Shown here in pieces: positions 1-24,476 of a stretch of 24,476 nucleotides of DNA (the stretch's first letter is position 1; every line of letters starts with the position of its first letter). Below the pieces are notes generated by a model that had not been told where the DNA came from, did not search any database, and saw only the letters and a program-made list of their open reading frames with translations. The position numbers and the translations under genes are program-made. Source of the DNA: a virus; IMG/VR virus record IMGVR_UViG_3300032046_006289, positions 1-24,476 of that record; one strand, given 5' to 3'.

Positions 1-312
1 TTAATATGTCGTTTCTAGGATGCTCTGAGTAACGTCTATCTCGCGGGTTTTGATGCTCGTTGCTTGACGATCTTGAAACTCAGGTCTTGCGGCTGCCAGT
101 ACCTTGTTCATGTTGGTCCATGCCATACGCGGGTAACTATTTATCAAGTCACTCGTCACCGCTATGCGGTCAATGAAACCGTTAACCTTGTCCCAGTCAT
201 GTTCTACCCTGACAGCTCTCATGTCCCTGTCAATGTTCCATGTTCCACTTAAGGTTTTCTTAGCGTGTATATGCAAAAGTTGTCCAGCAAGCAACTCTCG
301 GAGAATTGGCAC
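1..312 (-). CDS. Hypothetical protein, 103 aa, GTG start
   Basis: I do not recognise the family. The frame starts at GTG (310-312) and ends in TAA at 1-3, so its 3' end is complete in the window. The protein is mixed-charge and soluble-looking, with no signal peptide, membrane segment or cysteine motif. It lies beyond the palindrome array that closes the tail operon, so it may belong to a different transcription unit. Its frame stays open upstream, through the array, to a TGA near 535, but that extension has no ATG, GTG or TTG, so GTG at 312 is the first usable start. No clear ribosome binding site precedes it. It could be a small virus-specific protein or the 3' remnant of a longer gene. Confidence 0.5.
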   Translation of the reverse strand: MPILRELLAGQLLHIHAKKTLSGTWNIDRDMRAVRVEHDWDKVNGFIDRIAVTSDLINSYPRMAWTNMNKVLAAARPEFQDRQATSIKTREIDVTQSILETTY

Positions 313-326
313 TCTAATGAAACAGA

Positions 327-543
327 GGGCTTCTAACAGAAATACGCGTGGAAGACCGTATATTCCTGATTGAAGCCCGTTAAACGGGCTTGTACCCGAA
401 ATTCTCGTTGAAGCCCTGTACGCCTCAATTTGGCCTTCAAATCGGTTTCTAGAAGCCCGTTGAGTCTGGGGGTCTTCGCCGAAGCCCGTTTTTTCAGAGG
501 CCTTCGCTGAAGCCCATTTAATTAGAGGCCTTCACTGAAGACC
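327..543. repeat. Degenerate array of short palindromes, partly 28-bp periodic
   Basis: On the plus strand GAAGCCC or GAAGACC begins at 351, 372, 410, 452, 481, 509 and 537. Inverted partners (GGCCTTC, GGTCTTC, GGGCTTC) begin at 327, 432, 471, 499 and 527. The three right-hand units have the form GGYCTTC-NNN-GAAGNCC and start at 471, 499 and 527, exactly 28 bp apart, with an 11-bp linker that varies in sequence. On the minus-strand transcript each unit could fold into a 6-7 bp stem with a 3-nt loop. The 28-bp period is not a multiple of three and the linkers differ, so this is not a protein repeat. The stretch 313-605 holds no other convincing gene. Possible roles are an operator or iteron array, a packaging or partition site, or structured RNA at the end of the late operon. 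Confidence 0.75.
373..391. repeat. Perfect 19-bp palindrome inside the array
   Basis: AAGCCCGTT at 373-381 is followed by a single A at 382 and then its exact reverse complement AACGGGCTT at 383-391. It is the only perfect long inverted repeat in the array. A 1-nt centre cannot form a good RNA loop without opening pairs, so it fits a site for a dimeric DNA-binding protein better than a hairpin. That role is inference. Confidence 0.65.
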
Positions 544-605
544 GTCACGAGTGGCATAGTTGAGGTGGTTTAGGCTACCCTATTTGTTCAAACTTGTGTA
601 GGACC

Positions 606-779
606 CTATGACTCTCTCTTCAGAAAGTCCACGCTGAGAACAAAATGAAATGTGGCAGAGCCCAAGCAAGGAATAGAGAGTAAAGGCATGTTTAGGTCGT
701 AGATGCAGAGTAGGCCCAAACCGTAGAATAGGAAAGCCACGGCAAGAAGGAACGCGCACAACAGTTTCAGACGGTTCAT
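606..779 (-). CDS. Small membrane protein, 57 aa (holin-like or unknown)
   Basis: The ATG at 777-779 overlaps the TGA of the tail-hub gene (776-778) in an ATGA junction, the same coupling seen across this operon, and this supports a real gene. It begins MNRLKLL and has a strongly hydrophobic stretch at about residues 4-27, then a weaker one at about 34-50. It ends with a charged tail (KRES) and TAG at 606-608. A one- or two-pass membrane protein at the end of a tail module could be a holin or another lysis-associated protein, but no family is recognisable at this length. It is the last gene before the palindrome array. Confidence 0.65.
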   Translation of the reverse strand: MNRLKLLCAFLLAVAFLFYGLGLLCIYDLNMPLLSIPCLGSATFHFVLSVDFLKRES

Positions 780-2404
780 TTCACCACTTGGATACCTCTT
801 GCTATTTCCTTCTGAGCATTAAACTTTTGCTGTACTCCATCGCGCATATTTACGGGTGCGGGTGTGCGCGCGTCAGTTGTGTCAACCAGAACCGCGCCGG
901 TTAGAAAACCCTCATCGGTTCTCCGATGTTCAACGTTTACAACGTACCAGTCAGTGTTCACAGTTGTTATTCCCTCCGCTGGAAGGTTCATGTTCAACTT
1001 GTCGCCTATGAGAATGTTGGTGTTTCCAAGGCAAGATATGTCTAGTCGTTTGACTGGGTTTATGCACTGGTACAGAAACGTGTTGCCGCGTTTGGTGCAG
1101 TCACTGTCACTTTTCAGGTTAGTATCTAAATACTCCATCTGTCTGGCTCCATAACTAGCTATGCTTCCAGGGTCAGAAACGGTTGCTAAATAGTGTCTTC
1201 CATAAAAGTAAAGCGCGTCGATCCTGATAGTGATGGTTCCGTTGTTGGCTCCGAGGCAGTACCAACGTATGTTTGTGATGTTGCTCCATGAAGGTGCTCC
1301 CATATCGTTCCAAAGTCCGCTGTCAGGACCCAGTGGCAAGTTGAATTCATACCAAACATCGTCTTGCGTCATTGTTGGTCTTGACGCGGAATTGATGTAG
1401 TAATAGTATTTATTGATGACTGAATTGGCAGACAGTTCCACGCAGATTGAAAGTTCGCCAGCAGGGTTAGGGTTATCCACGATTTTAACCCACATATGTA
1501 GGGTGTCAAAATCGTCTTTGAAGCGGCCAGTGCAGTTGAGCGTACCAAAACCTTGCCAAATATACATGTTTGTAACTGTTGGTATCGTGGATTGCTTGCT
1601 GTTCGATCCGATTTTTGCGTCTGCTTGCCATGAGAGGGTTCCGTCACTAGTCCAAGACCCGCCAGTCTCAGTCCATAAGTCGCCATCCGTAGGTTCTTTC
1701 CTCTGCTCTCCGTAAACGTAGAAGGTATTTTTCACTGGGTCAAGTGGTCGCGTGAGATTGTAACCTAGAATGTTTTTGCCCAATTCTAGGGTTTCCACGC
1801 CAGCAGTCCTTAAGGGTCTAGTGTGCCAAACCAGTTCGTTGTCAATGTTCACATAGAAGTCCTTTTTCACTTGATTTGCGGCATCGTACCAGTAGTCAGA
1901 CACCTTGCGTAAAACGTCGAAATAGGTTTCACAGTCAACCTGCAAAGTCACATCTGTAGCGTCAGCCTGTATTTCTCCAAGTCCTAAACCCAAATCGTTA
2001 GCCAATTCATCAACAATATCGTGCGCGTCAATGGCTGTCCATCTCTTCTGTCGCTTCAGTCGCCTCTTCAAGATTTCACCGATTGACTTACCAGTGAATG
2101 TCCGTACATCTGTCTCGCTGTTGAGAGGTGCGGAGATTTGACTTATTCTGCCTATGAATGTTGGGTCAGTGGCAAGACCCCCAGAATCTTGATAGCCAAA
2201 CCAGATTTTTGTCCAGTCGAAAAGGTCAATGTCTGTGTAGGTGTAGCCTCCGTCATGTTTTGTCGGCAAGGTGAAACTGAAAATGCCCACATCATCAGTT
2301 ATGACTTCTTTAGTGTGAATGTTGAGTGCGTCCGCTGTTATCGTGTGCAAAGCACTGCCCGCGCCTGGCTCCCAAACTTCAATCTTGTAGATTGGAATGG
2401 TCAT
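776..2404 (-). CDS. Tail hub / baseplate protein with inserted jelly-roll-like domain, 542 aa
   Basis: Residues 1-230 look like a tail hub of the phage late-control D / gp27 type: an N-terminal domain that opens with a short beta strand (IYKIEVWEP), a region reporting an oxidised tail coordinate frame (FIGRISQI, FTGKSIGEIL), then a helical part (AHDIVDELANDLGLG) and a strand-rich part. From about 240 to 405 there is a Trp/Tyr/Gly-rich beta-sandwich segment resembling carbohydrate-binding jelly rolls. The hub-like chain then resumes (DISCLGNTNILIGDKL, VNVEHRRTDEGF). The position matches: it follows the gp10-like and tape-measure-slot genes. It would sit at the distal tail end, and the inserted domain may contact host surface glycans (inference). 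The gene starts ATG right after the TAA of the preceding gene. Confidence 0.75.
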   Translation of the reverse strand: MTIPIYKIEVWEPGAGSALHTITADALNIHTKEVITDDVGIFSFTLPTKHDGGYTYTDIDLFDWTKIWFGYQDSGGLATDPTFIGRISQISAPLNSETDVRTFTGKSIGEILKRRLKRQKRWTAIDAHDIVDELANDLGLGLGEIQADATDVTLQVDCETYFDVLRKVSDYWYDAANQVKKDFYVNIDNELVWHTRPLRTAGVETLELGKNILGYNLTRPLDPVKNTFYVYGEQRKEPTDGDLWTETGGSWTSDGTLSWQADAKIGSNSKQSTIPTVTNMYIWQGFGTLNCTGRFKDDFDTLHMWVKIVDNPNPAGELSICVELSANSVINKYYYYINSASRPTMTQDDVWYEFNLPLGPDSGLWNDMGAPSWSNITNIRWYCLGANNGTITIRIDALYFYGRHYLATVSDPGSIASYGARQMEYLDTNLKSDSDCTKRGNTFLYQCINPVKRLDISCLGNTNILIGDKLNMNLPAEGITTVNTDWYVVNVEHRRTDEGFLTGAVLVDTTDARTPAPVNMRDGVQQKFNAQKEIARGIQVVK

Positions 2405-2704
2405 TTAACTTATCTCCGCTATGAACTCGCTGGCTGACAACGCCGTGGCTATGGCAGAAACGCCGAGCATTGCCCACCCGATAGGACCTGAGGCAGCTTC
2501 AAACAAAATCAGGGTCGTGTGAGCTAACCTGATGGTCATGACGAGTTTTTGAAATTTGGCGATTGCAGCATCAACGTTTTCGTCTCCGCATAGTCGCCTC
2601 ATAAGTCCAAGAGAGCGAAACAACAGCGTTTCCAGTTGTCTAGCGCTGCTTAGGGCCCTTTCAACGTTCAGTTCAAGGTTGAAAACTACGGTTTCTTCGC
2701 TCAA
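2405..2704 (-). CDS. Small hydrophobic tail protein in the tape-measure position, 99 aa
   Basis: The start is TTG at 2702-2704, overlapping the TGA of the upstream gp10-like gene (TTGA). Residues 1-65 are predicted amphipathic helix (SARQLETLLFRSLGLMRRL, then AAIAKFQKLV). Residues about 65-97 form a hydrophobic, Gly/Ala-rich segment containing GPIGWAMLGVSA. Helix plus an apolar segment with a GPIGW-type turn recalls pieces of phage tape measure proteins, and the gene stands exactly between a gp10-like protein and the tail hub, where a tape measure normally lies. Tape measures are usually several hundred residues or more, so this would be a very short one. Alternatively it is a tail chaperone-like or membrane protein. 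Function is inferred from context. Confidence 0.6.
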   Translation of the reverse strand: MSEETVVFNLELNVERALSSARQLETLLFRSLGLMRRLCGDENVDAAIAKFQKLVMTIRLAHTTLILFEAASGPIGWAMLGVSAIATALSASEFIAEIS

Positions 2705-3075
2705 GAAGTGACACCTTCGACAACCCGCGCCTTAATCATTTCGGCAATCGTGGCCTTAACCTCATCGAACGCTGGCCTCATATACGGGTACTTAGCCTCA
2801 ACAATAGCAGCGTAGTTCACAAGTCTGCCCGTCTTAGGATTAGTCACATAACCGCCCGACCGTACACGTACTCTGCGCCATGCTTCGCCTTCGCCGCCTC
2901 TCTCAATGCGGATACTGTCACGGAGAGAACCAGTGTCAACTGGCACGTAAATCTGCGCTAAACCCTTCATAAGTTCGGCCTGTTGCAACAGAACCTCAAA
3001 CGCGAACTCCAGCATCTTCTCGGGTAAAACTGCAAGGTCAGTTTTGGCTGTACTAAAATCATATCTTATGCTCAT
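2701..3075 (-). CDS. HK97 gp10-like head-tail / tail completion protein, 124 aa
   Basis: The central motif VPVDTGSLRDSI (about residues 44-55), followed by a basic strand region and NYAAIVEAKYPYMRPAFDE (about 87-105), is the signature of the HK97-gp10 family. These proteins act in head-tail joining or tail completion. Length is typical for the family. The ATG at 3073-3075 lies inside the end of the preceding gene (17-nt overlap), and the 3' end overlaps the next gene by TTGA. It helps fix the boundary between neck and tail genes. Confidence 0.85.
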   Translation of the reverse strand: MSIRYDFSTAKTDLAVLPEKMLEFAFEVLLQQAELMKGLAQIYVPVDTGSLRDSIRIERGGEGEAWRRVRVRSGGYVTNPKTGRLVNYAAIVEAKYPYMRPAFDEVKATIAEMIKARVVEGVTS

Positions 3076-3250
3076 GTTTCTGTAGAACCCCTGCCAGTTT
3101 CTTTATGTATTCCTCGCAGAACTGCAAGAACTCCGCGTAAGTCCATGCAAGATAGTCAGTTTCGCAGATGCCGTTCTGCCTGAAAAACATTTTCAGATCC
3201 GTTGCCCACTCAGGGTCAAGAGTAGCCATTTCTCTAAGTTTCACGCTCAT
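3059..3250 (-). CDS. Hypothetical small protein, 63 aa
   Basis: No family recognised. It is acidic and aromatic-rich, mostly helical, with two cysteines (in NGICE and QFCEE) and no membrane segment. It begins with ATG at 3248-3250 in an ATGA overlap with the TGA of the upstream tail gene, and its own end overlaps the gp10-like gene by 17 nt. The position between a tail protein and a gp10-like protein would fit a tail-assembly chaperone or small connector factor. That is context only. Confidence 0.65.
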   Translation of the reverse strand: MSVKLREMATLDPEWATDLKMFFRQNGICETDYLAWTYAEFLQFCEEYIKKLAGVLQKHEHKI

Positions 3251-4161
3251 GTGATTCCGAACCTTTCTTGACTCGTCTCCACATTCGCAGAACCCAAACG
3301 GTACTCGTGCATGTCCAGTTCGTAACTCAGCAGATTCTCGTCCGTTTTGGCCTGGCTAATCCTCATGCGGTCCACAGTTACTTTCAGGCTTGCAACGTCG
3401 CTCGTGAACCACTGCCACGGGTCGCCGAAGCCGTAATGGAGAATCTGGTAGAACGCTTCTGCGTCGTGTGAGGTCCATCGTCCGTGCCATCCACTGTTAA
3501 TCACTGGAACCCCTGCAGCATCAACGCCTGTGCTGTCAATGTCGCCGTAAACGCGAATCGTCGAGTCGTCGCCGCCTAAGTATTGAGTGGCGTTTCCGAC
3601 TTTGTCCGGGATTTTCAGGTGCTGCAGATTGTTGAAGCCTTCAAGTTCGACGCCACCCGACACGAACGGCCAAGTGAAGACGCCCTGGCACATGAGTGCA
3701 AAATCAAAGTAGACGCTGTAACTTGTGACTCCCCCCGTTAAGGTGTCTGGGTTGTCGTTGGCGTGGAACTGGATATACTCGATAACTCTACCGGGCGTCA
3801 AGGTTATTGTACGTGTTGTCCAAGACGTACTGAAGCCCAAGACCGTTGTGGTGGCGCCGCCGCCTGAAGCTGCCGTGTAAGCAACTACAAACTTGGCCTC
3901 CAAACCGTTGGCATCCACGCTTGTCTTCCAACGGACAACACACTGGGGATAAATAGTGGTGTTGATTGCGCTGGCGGAAACGTCCTTCCAAACATAAAGG
4001 TAGTCGTTGCCTCCCGTGTTGGGTTTGCCACTTAATGTTAATACGTCGCCGTCAGACGTTGCTGAAGGTGTGGTTATTCCCACATGAATCAGTGTCCACC
4101 CCGCGACTGTTTCACAGTCGTGGAGCCAGCCGTGTCCATACGTGATTGTTGGTTTTGTCAA
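3247..4161 (-). CDS. Tail structural protein with N-terminal jelly-roll-like domain, 304 aa
   Basis: The frame is open well upstream, into the previous gene. I place the start at TTG 4159-4161, which overlaps the TGA of the upstream gene (4158-4160) as TTGA and has GAGG about 8 nt upstream. A start at 4314 would force a 157-nt overlap. The N-terminal half (about 1-160) is a Thr/Gly/Trp-rich beta sandwich like carbohydrate-binding domains. The C-terminal half (about 165-304) contains YGFGDPWQWF and a strand-rich segment ending in YELDMHEYRLG, compatible with a tail tube or baseplate domain. It lies between another tail protein and the gp10-like gene. The exact structural role is unknown. Confidence 0.65.
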   Translation of the reverse strand: MTKPTITYGHGWLHDCETVAGWTLIHVGITTPSATSDGDVLTLSGKPNTGGNDYLYVWKDVSASAINTTIYPQCVVRWKTSVDANGLEAKFVVAYTAASGGGATTTVLGFSTSWTTRTITLTPGRVIEYIQFHANDNPDTLTGGVTSYSVYFDFALMCQGVFTWPFVSGGVELEGFNNLQHLKIPDKVGNATQYLGGDDSTIRVYGDIDSTGVDAAGVPVINSGWHGRWTSHDAEAFYQILHYGFGDPWQWFTSDVASLKVTVDRMRISQAKTDENLLSYELDMHEYRLGSANVETSQERFGIT

Positions 4162-14770: not shown

Positions 14771-15802
14771 CTATAACGGGTGTCTGCGGTCTTGCCTGCG
14801 CTCTTCAATCACGCGTTGTTCCCGCATGGCCAGCAGTCCCTTGCTGCGGTCAATCAACTGTTCAGCCGTCAAGTTTTCAGGCGGCGGAGTTTCTAGTGTT
14901 TTGGCAGGTTCTTCAGGCGGCGTAACTGCCTCTGGCGGCTTGGCAGCTGGCGGCGGCACAACTGTTTCTGGCGCCTTCATTGATGGCGGAACCGCAGGTA
15001 TCAACGCGATCAACTCTTTCTTTCCTGCCACATACGCGTCCCAATAGTCCTTCGCCTGCTGCTCAGTGTAACCTTGAGCTTTACGGTCTTTCAGGAAGTC
15101 TTCCCATTCAGTCGGTTTTGCTGTGCTCAATCCTTTTTCACCTCCCATAACTTGTTGAGCCCCTTCAATACTGCGTTTAATCGTGGCGCAGTAACCTTCA
15201 GGATCGGCCTTGTCCTGGTTTTTGGCTACGCAATCGGCGAAGTCCGCGTATTCTCCGAAAGGATCAAGTGCGATTCGCTTCATCATTGTGTCTACTCCTA
15301 TGCCGCAGTCTGGAAAGCTGCATCTGCCCTTCAGGACGCCTGCCGCTACGTGGTCGATGACGATGTCGCGCATAACATAGTCGTAGTTGCTGCCGTTCCA
15401 AGTGCCCGGAGTCAAGTCAGGCTGATAATAGAAGCCTATGCTCACGTCTTTCAACTTGCCGTTGCGAACGTTATCGAGAAAGTCTGCGGGGCACGTGCTC
15501 TTGTCAAAGTTTAGAACTGCTCTGATTCTGTCACGGTCAAAAAACGGTTTCTCAACGACGCCGTGCATCTGTTTCTGGCTCATTACCACGAGGCTGTCAG
15601 GATGGTCTAGGATGGTGATTTTGGCGTTTCTGGCTGTGTGCGTGGCTTTAAGCAGTTCCATTCTGCTTTTGAATGCTCTTCCGTCAGGGTATTGGTAGAC
15701 GCCTTCTCTTGTTATGACGGCGTTGACTTTTAGGCAGCACCTACTATCCTCAATCACTTGCAAAGAGTCTACTTGCATTTGGTCGTATCCAATCTTCGTC
15801 AT
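14771..15802 (-). CDS. DUF2213-type prohead serine protease with C-terminal scaffold region, 343 aa
   Basis: Residues 1-175 carry the DUF2213 pattern: KITILDHPDS with H67, LKDVSIGFYY with candidate nucleophile S121, and HVAAGVLKGRCSFPDCGIG (151-169). A conserved segment FADCVAKNQDKADPEGYC (188-205) follows. Residues about 255-343 are Pro/Glu/Lys/Ala-rich and low complexity, like the scaffold tails that such proteases release from the prohead. The ATG overlaps the TGA of the methyltransferase upstream as ATGA. It cleaves head proteins during maturation (family knowledge). The exact catalytic set is inferred from pattern, not tested. Confidence 0.8.
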   Translation of the reverse strand: MTKIGYDQMQVDSLQVIEDSRCCLKVNAVITREGVYQYPDGRAFKSRMELLKATHTARNAKITILDHPDSLVVMSQKQMHGVVEKPFFDRDRIRAVLNFDKSTCPADFLDNVRNGKLKDVSIGFYYQPDLTPGTWNGSNYDYVMRDIVIDHVAAGVLKGRCSFPDCGIGVDTMMKRIALDPFGEYADFADCVAKNQDKADPEGYCATIKRSIEGAQQVMGGEKGLSTAKPTEWEDFLKDRKAQGYTEQQAKDYWDAYVAGKKELIALIPAVPPSMKAPETVVPPPAAKPPEAVTPPEEPAKTLETPPPENLTAEQLIDRSKGLLAMREQRVIEERRQDRRHPL

Positions 15803-16269
15803 GATTCAGTCACCTTGAAAAGTTTCAGGACAATATCAAAACTATGAGCATGGCATTCCTTTGTAGTTGTGTAAATGCAACAGTCAACCTGATAATCCGC
15901 TGAATAGAGTTGTTTCAGTTTTCGTTTCAGTCGCCCCTTTGTGTAAAGATGAAAACACGGGTAGGTGGAACCACATCTATGTTTTCTCCATAAGTGGTAG
16001 TACAACCAAGCCTTGTAGCCTGCCACGATGATTGTAGCTCTGCCACCGACTCTCAGTAGCCTAAAGACTTCCTTGAAGGCGACAACATCGTCTGAAATGT
16101 GTTGAATGACTCTTCTAGAGTAGATTTCGTCAACCGTGCCATATGGAAAGAGGTTATGCGTATCTTGCAAGGAGCACACGTAATCAGTTTGCGGGGTAGG
16201 TCTAACGTCTAAACCTATGAAGCCTTGCTGTTTCCTATATCCGCATCCAACGTCTAGTTTGATTGTCAC
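15799..16269 (-). CDS. Class I SAM-dependent methyltransferase, 156 aa
   Basis: The SAM-binding motif I is LDVGCG at residues 5-10, followed by GFIGLDV with acidic D21 for the ribose. RRVIQHISD (52-60) and LLRVGGRATI (71-80) are the post-motif segments of the Methyltransf_11 group. It starts with GTG at 16267-16269, 1 nt after the TAA of the glycosyltransferase, and ends in an ATGA overlap with the protease. It is shorter than free-standing relatives and starts almost at motif I, so it lacks the usual N-terminal cap. The substrate is unknown. With the glycosyltransferase beside it, a sugar or glycan is the best guess. Confidence 0.8.
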   Translation of the reverse strand: MTIKLDVGCGYRKQQGFIGLDVRPTPQTDYVCSLQDTHNLFPYGTVDEIYSRRVIQHISDDVVAFKEVFRLLRVGGRATIIVAGYKAWLYYHLWRKHRCGSTYPCFHLYTKGRLKRKLKQLYSADYQVDCCIYTTTKECHAHSFDIVLKLFKVTES

Positions 16270-16270
16270 C

Positions 16271-17023
16271 TTAAGTTTTGAGTGAAGCCCTTACACTGCA
16301 ATATTCTCTCAGATAGTTCAAGTCTAGCCACTTCAAAGTGTAAAACAAGGCTCTTGGAATGGGCACGTTCTGTTGCACGGCAATTTGCGCCCGCAACTTT
16401 AATGATCTAGGATTGCAGGGTCTTAGATGAAGGCTCGTGCTCCATGAAAAGTACCTGTAACGCAATCCCACCGCGATACACGTTTTGAGGAAAGCGGAGT
16501 CTTCTGCGTCACAATCGACGTGTTGAATATTGTCGTATATGGTCTTTCTGAAACCATAAATGCCTGTCAACATGCTCCTGTGGGCAATTCTGTTTTTCAG
16601 TCTTTCATAATTATATATTACTGTTTCCTTCGTTTTAGCCTTCAGTTTTTCCCATGAAGACCCGAAAAGCGAGTAGTCGTTGCACTTGAAACTGCAAAGA
16701 TCAATACCACTCCAGTCAACCGTGAAGATTCTTGGGTCAACGTAGATGTCGCTTCCGATGCTGTACGCAACGTCTCCCGTTGCCTCTTTGAAGCCGATGG
16801 CGAAAGGTTCGGCGGTAGGCGAGAGCCACTGTTTCTTTTTCAGTTCAATGACCTTCACCTTAAAAGGAAAATTCGTTTCTTCAATGATGTTTAGGCTTCG
16901 GTCTGAACACCTGTCCAACACGAAAATGGCTTCGTACAGTGGAGAATCACGTAGAGCCATGATGCAGTATGGGAGGTATTGCTCCTCGTTATGAACGGCC
17001 ACAACCGCAGACGCTCTGATCAT
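16271..17023 (-). CDS. Family 2 glycosyltransferase, 250 aa
   Basis: I start it at ATG 17021-17023 because it overlaps the upstream TGA as ATGA. The GT-A signature is clear: VVAVHNEEQYLPYC (about 7-20) for nucleotide-sugar binding, VLDRCSDRS (35-43), and SIGSDIYVDPRIF (88-100) with D92 and D96 as candidate metal-binding residues. CDAEDSAFL further on could supply the catalytic acid region. No membrane segment is obvious. It probably adds a sugar to a virion or host surface component. Its place inside the head operon, flanked by methyltransferases, argues for modification of a virion protein or glycan. Confidence 0.85.
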   Translation of the reverse strand: MIRASAVVAVHNEEQYLPYCIMALRDSPLYEAIFVLDRCSDRSLNIIEETNFPFKVKVIELKKKQWLSPTAEPFAIGFKEATGDVAYSIGSDIYVDPRIFTVDWSGIDLCSFKCNDYSLFGSSWEKLKAKTKETVIYNYERLKNRIAHRSMLTGIYGFRKTIYDNIQHVDCDAEDSAFLKTCIAVGLRYRYFSWSTSLHLRPCNPRSLKLRAQIAVQQNVPIPRALFYTLKWLDLNYLREYCSVRASLKT

Positions 17024-17256
17024 GTAAGATGCGTTCTCAAATATTGGTTTGCATCTTCTAAGACTCTGCATACTGCCGAGATGATTTCTGCAGGCACCTT
17101 AACAGGTTCGTGCAGGTCTTTCATGAACTTTGTGTGTCTTACCGTCACAGTCGGATTGCCTACACTAAATTCTGCCCAAACATGTTCAATCCCGTCATTG
17201 TCCAGGCTTACGCTACTTCTCAGTTTTGGATTTTTTTCCGTTTCACCTTGACCCAT
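17020..17256 (-). CDS. Hypothetical protein in the glycosylation cassette, 78 aa
   Basis: ATG at 17254-17256 lies 1 nt after the methyltransferase TAG and has AAGGGGGA upstream. It ends in an ATGA overlap with the glycosyltransferase, so it is coupled on both sides. The protein has a polar N-terminus, a strand region (HVWAEFSVGNPTVTVRHTKF) and a C-terminal helix (EIISAVCRVLEDANQYL). I do not recognise the family. Its function is likely linked to the cassette, but there is no motif to say how. Confidence 0.65.
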   Translation of the reverse strand: MGQGETEKNPKLRSSVSLDNDGIEHVWAEFSVGNPTVTVRHTKFMKDLHEPVKVPAEIISAVCRVLEDANQYLRTHLT

Positions 17257-17257
17257 T

Positions 17258-17908
17258 CTATCCCCCTTTTACGATCCACCAGTCAGGATATGAAATGTGC
17301 AAATGCTGTTTCCCATACTGCGAGGCAAACTCGTTTACGGCTTTGATGACGCCCTTGAAATAGTATGGCACGTAGTCGTGGCCGCCTATCACGCCGTTGG
17401 GCTTTACCAGTGGAAAGTAGTGGTTGATGTCGCTTTTGACGTTCTCGTAACTGTGGTTTCCGTCGATATACACGAAATCCAGCAAGCCGTCAATGTCTGC
17501 CACTGCGTCATCAGAGGTTTTCCTTATGAACGTGGCCTGCGGGAACAGTTCAAGCCTCTCTTTTGCCGTGGCTAAACAATCGCTGAACCTTGAACTTTCT
17601 TTGCCATCCTCAACGTATGGCGTGTAAGGGTCTATCAGAAAGATTTGTTTGATGGGCAGTTCCTGAAGCATGTTGAGGGCGTTCCATCCTTGGGCCACGC
17701 CGATCTCTGCACATATAAGAGCGGGTTTGCCCCTGAAATGGTCTTTATTGAACACTGTCATGGGTCTGGGAATGGTGCCAACGTCCTGAAGCATTTCTGC
17801 AAAGCAGACGTGCTCGGCATATACGCCGCTGGCTATCGTCTTGACTATTTTGTGGCGTAACTTTAGGGTTTTTTGGGCAATAAACTCTTTCATACCTAAC
17901 ACTTCCAT
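17258..17908 (-). CDS. Class I SAM-dependent methyltransferase (Methyltransf_24-like), 216 aa
   Basis: AEIGVAQGWNA (68-78) is the SAM-binding loop, LIDPYTPY has D93, LLDFVYIDGNHSYENVKSD (142-160) is the metal/active-site signature of the Methyltransf_24 / CmcI-like group, and GVIGGHDY (172-179) follows. These enzymes often O-methylate sugars or hydroxyls and use a divalent metal. ATG 17908 is 13 nt inside the MuF-like gene; a second ATG at 17893 is also possible. It is the first gene of the four-gene modification cassette inserted between the MuF and protease genes. Confidence 0.85.
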   Translation of the reverse strand: MEVLGMKEFIAQKTLKLRHKIVKTIASGVYAEHVCFAEMLQDVGTIPRPMTVFNKDHFRGKPALICAEIGVAQGWNALNMLQELPIKQIFLIDPYTPYVEDGKESSRFSDCLATAKERLELFPQATFIRKTSDDAVADIDGLLDFVYIDGNHSYENVKSDINHYFPLVKPNGVIGGHDYVPYYFKGVIKAVNEFASQYGKQHLHISYPDWWIVKGG

Positions 17909-23977: not shown

Positions 23978-24312
23978 GGTTTTACTTCCAAAGGTTCAAG
24001 CACGTTCGAGTCTGAAACCACAAACGACAGGTCCACGCCCAAACTGGTGAGGCTAATATAATCCTTGATGGGGATGAGCACGGTGTGGTTGGCTACGCCT
24101 TCGCGTCGCGCATTGTCTTTCGCTTTGACTATTATAGATATTGCTACGAGCTGTTCGGTTGGAAGCCAACTGTAAACAGCGTTTTTCTTGGCTGGCAGGC
24201 CCTGCAGGTATCTCAAGCTGAAATCGCGCAGCATACCCAAGACTTTTGGGCTTCGTTTGAAGACGTAGCCGTCGCCGTCGGTTAAGCCGTACCAGAAATG
24301 TTCCAACTTCAA
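23974..24312 (-). CDS. Hypothetical protein, 112 aa, TTG start
   Basis: TTG at 24310-24312 overlaps the TGA of the partial upstream gene as TTGA. The protein starts MKLEHFWYGLTDGDGYVF, has an alpha/beta mix with SWLPTEQLVAISIIVKAKD and NHTVLIPIKDYISLTSLG, and no membrane segment. I do not recognise the family. It ends in an ATGA overlap with the coiled-coil membrane gene. Confidence 0.55.
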   Translation of the reverse strand: MKLEHFWYGLTDGDGYVFKRSPKVLGMLRDFSLRYLQGLPAKKNAVYSWLPTEQLVAISIIVKAKDNARREGVANHTVLIPIKDYISLTSLGVDLSFVVSDSNVLEPLEVKP

Positions 24313-24476
24313 GAGGCGAACGTTCCTAGATAGTTTATCAAGTCAACGTAACTCTGAGCCCAATACTGCGGAATCCGCAGGTTAACTTCCATCTCAATCT
24401 TGTCGTGCCCGTCAGGCCACCGTTGCGGCTTGCCCTGACTATCCTTAGCAACCTTCACGTAACTCGGAAAGAACTT
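24309..24476 (-). CDS. C-terminal fragment of a gene cut by the window edge
   Basis: The last 55 residues of a frame that enters from the right edge are visible. They begin KFFPSYVKVAKDSQGKPQRW and end LINYLGTFAS before TGA 24309-24311. The strand and the TTGA overlap with the next gene show it is part of the same operon. No family can be named from this piece. Confidence 0.6.
   Translation of the reverse strand, partial: KFFPSYVKVAKDSQGKPQRWPDGHDKIEMEVNLRIPQYWAQSYVDLINYLGTFAS

Follow-up and report, generated by a model that had tools for sequence, protein, structure and literature searches.

The integron attC core reads GTTRRRY / RYYYAAC (R' and R''). Both attC sites and attC clusters occur in phages (PMC9892861), and homeologous recombination has been described (PMC2327257). 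REP sequences are imperfect extragenic palindromes of 20 to 40 bp that are present in >100 copies per genome, fall into two super-families by a GTAG or CGTC tag at one end, and have an associated tyrosine (Y1) transposase (PMC2817692, PMC3733652). The locus described here is nearest to REP/BIME clusters in form and to the attC sites of phages in situation. It is an array of short palindromic words. The IMG/VR virus record that carries it, hereafter called the window, is complete, 24,476 bp long, and classed as linear. With moderate confidence, we read the array as a noncoding cluster of palindromic half-sites under constraint, bounding an exchangeable tail cassette on its right-hand side and acting as a recombination-prone seam in viruses that are probably those of archaea.

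Palindromic words and units in the window

Twelve exact GGNCTTC/GAAGNCC words lie within positions 327 to 543, whereas 2,000 dinucleotide-preserving shuffles of the same 230 bp yielded 0.24 on average and never more than 4. GAAGNCC starts at 351, 372, 410, 452, 481, 509, and 537 and GGNCTTC at 327, 432, 471, 499, and 527, while GGGCTTG at 386 is a one-off version of the latter word; elsewhere in the window, no 220-bp stretch outside the array holds more than two words. These positions bear out a sequence-only reading of this DNA, which had listed seven words of the GAAGNCC type and five inverted partners and had placed GGYCTTC-NNN-GAAGNCC units at 471, 499, and 527, at a spacing that is indeed exactly 28 bp. 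TRF likewise reports a period of 28 across 452 to 545. The words do sit within the 327 to 543 given by that reading, but word positions together with alignment to a second virus contig, G001 (IMG/VR IMGVR_UViG_3300031952_000034, 44.2 kb; array locus L004), give better bounds of ∼323 to 545, with a left (outer) edge that opens with CAGAGG at ∼323 and a right (inner) edge that closes with GAAGACCGT.

The array, its units, and the blocks discussed below are given without strand. Three short units of 17 bp occupy 471 to 487 (GGTCTTCGCCGAAGCCC), 499 to 515 (GGCCTTCGCTGAAGCCC), and 527 to 543 (GGCCTTCACTGAAGACC; G001 counterpart, L004 3787 to 3803). A second unit type, GGGCTT-N6-GAAAT-N7-GAAGNCC, is 31 bp long and is found at 327 to 357, where it ends in GAAGACC, and at 386 to 416, where it ends in GAAGCCC (G001 counterpart, L004 3816 to 3846). 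An intermediate unit (GGCCTTC-N13-GAAGCCC) at 432 to 458 falls inside a block that is missing from G001, and a single GAAGCCC word stands on the plus strand at 372 to 378. All of these units are placed between a 57-amino-acid (aa) open reading frame (ORF) and the 3′ stump of a gene that we call tail B. Among tandem units within the window, the words are 86 to 93% identical and the remainder 29 to 64%. The linkers, which had been described as diverged, thus vary more than the words but are not random (GTTTTTTCAGA / ATTTAATTAGA). A CRISPR or mini-CRISPR array, with its near-identical repeats and its unique, similarly long spacers, was considered and rejected, as the tandem units are 57 to 79% identical, the linkers are 11 bp long, and the array has no Rfam match.

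Words and linkers compared between two viruses

The G001 contig has ends that overlap by 304 bp at 96.7% identity, so that it probably represents a circular genome whose assembly drew on mixed strains. The tail gene of G001 is a near-copy of that in the window (98% protein identity). Its late genes lie on one strand, ending at the tail gene, and its early genes lie on the other, so that the two blocks converge at the array; in GC skew, only this gene strand switch is visible there. The G001 array is orthologous to that of the window and collinear with it from CAGAGG (323) to GAAGACCGT (545), minus two blocks: 42 bp at 417 to 458, a word-to-word indel, and 56 bp at 481 to 536, comprising two 28-bp units. 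When window positions 386 to 416, 459 to 480, and 537 to 545 are joined, 52 of 63 match G001. This collinear alignment with two block indels led us to reject a description of the two arrays as unit shuffled and nonalignable. The 28-bp spacing, which had been expected to persist in relatives, is not kept, as G001 lacks both blocks.

Fixed word positions differ between window and G001 at 2 of 42 sites. Linkers differ at 19 of 74, the spacer that separates the array from the final tail-cassette gene at 15 of 54, and the free base in the middle of each word at 4 of 7. By Fisher's test, P is about 0.005 for words versus linkers and about 0.003 for words versus spacer, values that are optimistic because the words themselves serve as anchors for the alignment, which biases it in their favor, and because the blocks were picked after inspection. 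Since the words differ less than either linkers or spacer, they appear to be constrained, a conclusion supported by one genome pair; the contrast among tandem units within the window points the same way. The prediction that words would persist while linkers changed thus held in the single array-bearing relative. What is kept seems not to be RNA pairing, as had been one suggestion under the proposed selection on palindromes: the central base of a word pairs with its partner in one of nine units, and no compensatory change was seen among the word differences between window and G001, so that conservation of sequence rather than of pairing probably fits best.

Truncated genes at the outer edge

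The window extends for 312 bp on the far side of the array, and these positions (1 to 312, minus strand) encode a stump with 44 to 48% identity to the C-terminal ∼100 aa of full-length tail B proteins, which form the end of the late operon in virus records G003 (609 aa) and G002 (537 aa). The first aligned residue is at ∼306, close by the array edge at 323 to 327. This match to the last ∼100 aa of tail B in both genomes rules out ORF 1 to 312 as an independent gene. It is the stump left by replacement of most of tail B with tail cassette A, with the right-hand join at the array. The array does not therefore lie, as the sequence-only reading had it, between the late operon and a gene of unknown role; it is flanked by one tail gene and by what remains of the 3′ end of a second. 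The stump retains its stop codon and has no proper start. Its frame stays open on the minus strand through ∼313 to 530, nearly the whole array, with no common start codon and probably by chance; the G001 array is likewise open in one frame.

This edge of the array in G001 adjoins a different gene of opposite strand, a winged-helix-like gene without a Pfam match that lacks its last ∼130 aa (L004 3760 to 4515, minus strand). Homologues L102 to L104 extend ∼130 aa beyond the motif PLHAPVW, and in G001 homology stops at the F codon of PLHKPVF, ending at L004 3916, ∼2 bp from the start of array alignability. The reading frame continues for ∼50 codons through the array, giving a fused C terminus. 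CC-GTTT is common to the G001 join and the intact gene (TTGCATGCGCCTGTTTGG versus TTGCATAAGCCCGTTTTT), and the join sequence (AAGCCCGTTTTTT) also occurs inside the array, as would be expected of a microhomology join. Because neither truncated neighbor can be the ancestral continuation, we infer that at least two separate joins probably took place within ∼15 bp of the outer edge of the array, drawing on two cases from metagenomic contigs, which can be chimeric. The two joins are not at the identical base and lie up to ∼15 bp apart.

The exchanged tail cassette and its relatives

The cassette that ends at the array spans 572 to 3862 (minus strand) and shares 94.7% DNA identity with G001 (96.6% across 572 to 3690). 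Its exchangeable genes encode proteins of 57, 542, 99, 124, and 63 aa, including tail protein A (776 to 2404, minus strand; YQBQ-like, phrog_400) and, as the last intact gene, the 57-aa ORF (606 to 779, minus strand), which is of membrane type by its sequence and has similar small counterparts after the tail gene in L125 and L131. The terminase, portal, and capsid region of the window instead resembles G002 and G003 (69 to 76% DNA identity). The array is absent from five tail-gene relatives (31 to 54% protein identity) that have the same convergent layout, which places it with the exchanged cassette rather than with the entire virus group. Among 66 terminase relatives together with the tail relatives, it was found only in G001, and we therefore rejected it as a general trait of the group; besides G001, three pattern scans of IMG/VR returned chance matches only. 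Given truncated neighbors on the far side and tail relatives without the array, we conclude that a recently exchanged tail cassette has its right edge at the array.

Other regions of these genomes were noted in passing. The right end of the window (24309 to 24474) falls within a gene encoding a weakly double-GTPase-like (DO-GTPase2) protein and is 97.6% identical in DNA to G001 (L075 15344 to 16348), and two methyltransferase-like genes and a family-2 glycosyltransferase gene lie among the structural genes at 15799 to 17908 (minus strand). The sister virus G003 carries a 24-bp tandem repeat of 16 copies with 86% matches (L082 3064 to 3452), whose words are unrelated to those of the array.

Probable hosts

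The closest cultured terminases are those of psiM2/psiM100 of Methanothermobacter (∼49%), and contigs in Chloroflexota bins carry terminases at up to 66 to 69%. A virus contig with a capsid gene encodes a TFIIB-repeat protein (L102 2061 to 2495; PF00382, E = 1.7e−11) as well as a complete homologue of the gene that is cut short in G001. The position of this TFIIB-repeat protein beside a relative of that gene argues for archaeal hosts, and the viruses with the array probably infect archaea. Thermoproteota/Bathyarchaeia as the likelier host group is a guess; head-tailed viruses of Bathyarchaeia have been described (PMC10848311). None of 393 genomes in the phylum of a Methanosarcinales archaeon and none of 400 in the phylum of a Dehalococcoidales genome has the tandem pattern; neither phylum is the likelier host group. 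On a Methanosarcinales contig, a putative TnpB-like gene directly follows the terminase (L095 8542 to 9891).

A proposed recombination-prone boundary and its alternatives

In the reading that we favor, the repeated, hairpin-capable words would supply short homology and a point of breakage or fork stalling. The cassette would be joined illegitimately at the array end while its other end recombines in shared genes. Between the two viruses, array units have come and gone as word-to-word blocks, and in each genome the outer edge of the array is joined to unrelated DNA through a truncated gene. That the array causes the seam as well as marking it is a further step, which we infer. A passive hotspot would not need constrained words, and the constraint suggests that something reads them: on the one hand a recombinase or an endonuclease acting on hairpins, on the other a protein with a regulatory or partition role.

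The second of these options leads to the main rival, a lineage-specific protein-binding cluster at the end of the late cassette (an operator, transcription block, or partition-like site) in which a dimer reads GGNCTTC half-sites and the location at a seam is secondary. We regard this as possible but on balance rather unlikely. It would account for words that are better kept than linkers or spacer while their central base is free, and for the 10-bp separation of half-sites within short units, but half-site spacing varies across the array (10, 20, and 24 bp). Convergence of late and early gene blocks at the G001 array would suit such a site, but the five relatives of the same convergent layout do without it. 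Comparison with ParB/parS is similarly divided: G001 encodes a weakly ParB-like protein at L075 9671 to 10993, but L125 and L130 have a similarly placed protein of like size (HTH containing in L125) and no array. Candidate solitary sites elsewhere in the window and in 40 kb of G001 are limited to chance-level matches with two mismatches. The roles in late-operon control, packaging, or partition that the sequence-only reading had proposed find no support: the array is absent at the same tail-end junction in five more distant relatives, relatives with a similarly placed candidate ParB-like or HTH gene lack it, good solitary sites were not found, and terminator signals do not exceed shuffles.

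Returning to recombination, a more specific possibility is that the words are recognized by a recombinase or by an endonuclease that acts on single strands (hairpins), and that the array is a dedicated terminus on the right of a mobile cassette of tail genes in viruses of archaea. We consider this stronger version unlikely; G001 encodes one tyrosine recombinase, at L075 12825 to 13661, ∼9 kb from the array.

It is quite doubtful that the units are a host palindromic repeat family of the REP/MITE kind picked up by the virus, with word conservation reflecting unit mobility. Their size (17 to 32 bp), imperfect palindromes, and unpaired central position are in keeping with this origin, and their clustering at gene ends and turnover in blocks resemble REP clusters, but there is one array per virus genome. 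Moreover, a search of the window, G001, G002, G003, and three other virus records for the Y1 transposase family PF01797 found nothing, and neither GTAG nor CGTC tags were seen at unit ends when flanks were read by eye. The tandem pattern is also absent from the 393 and 400 genomes of the two phyla above, neither being the likelier host group, and from IMG/VR apart from G001 and one chance match. Least probable, and in our view very unlikely, is an RNA element that closes the late transcript at its 3′ end, with hairpins for stability or termination: the late-sense strand of the window array folds better than shuffles (z = −3.8) and on the opposite strand a single hairpin precedes GTTTTTT, but folding is weak in G001 (z = −1.5 and −0.45), central stem positions rarely pair and show no compensatory change, and the late-sense hairpins lack a T-tract. 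An intrinsic terminator array was rejected as well, with GC hairpin and U-tract sites and terminator-like signals not above shuffles in the window or L004.

Comparison with known systems

Movement of tail modules between viruses bears on the hosts that they can use, and the junction sequences are seldom caught in recognizable form. In the present case, two genomes show one boundary beside different neighbors, each with a truncated gene on the far side and with constrained palindromes in between. Should an enzyme read the words, tail exchange in this lineage would be site directed; otherwise, the locus would be a clear case of a palindrome array as a recombination hotspot.

Like REP/BIME clusters (PMC2817692, PMC3733652), the array consists of short imperfect palindromes clustered in noncoding DNA at gene ends, with duplication and loss of blocks, and its units of 17 to 32 bp with a mostly unpaired central position compare with the 20- to 40-bp imperfect palindromes of REP. 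Unlike REP/BIME, with >100 copies, there is one array in the window and one in G001, and it sits in a virus. With phage attC sites (PMC9892861) it has in common that its inverted repeats are imperfect and close an exchangeable viral gene block whose neighbors differ between genomes. Unlike attC sites, its units are 17 to 32 bp long and packed without cassettes; by eye, the attC core GTTRRRY / RYYYAAC does not recur in the units, and GTTAAAC occurs once (379 to 385). A dedicated tail-swapping site of the kind proposed above would work like integron attC or shufflon sites while being unrelated to them. Finally, as in the illegitimate or homeologous module-boundary joins of mosaic phages, the join falls at the edge of a functional block and the neighboring gene on the far side is truncated. 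Unlike those joins, however, the boundary in both genomes is marked by a multicopy, sequence-constrained palindrome array.
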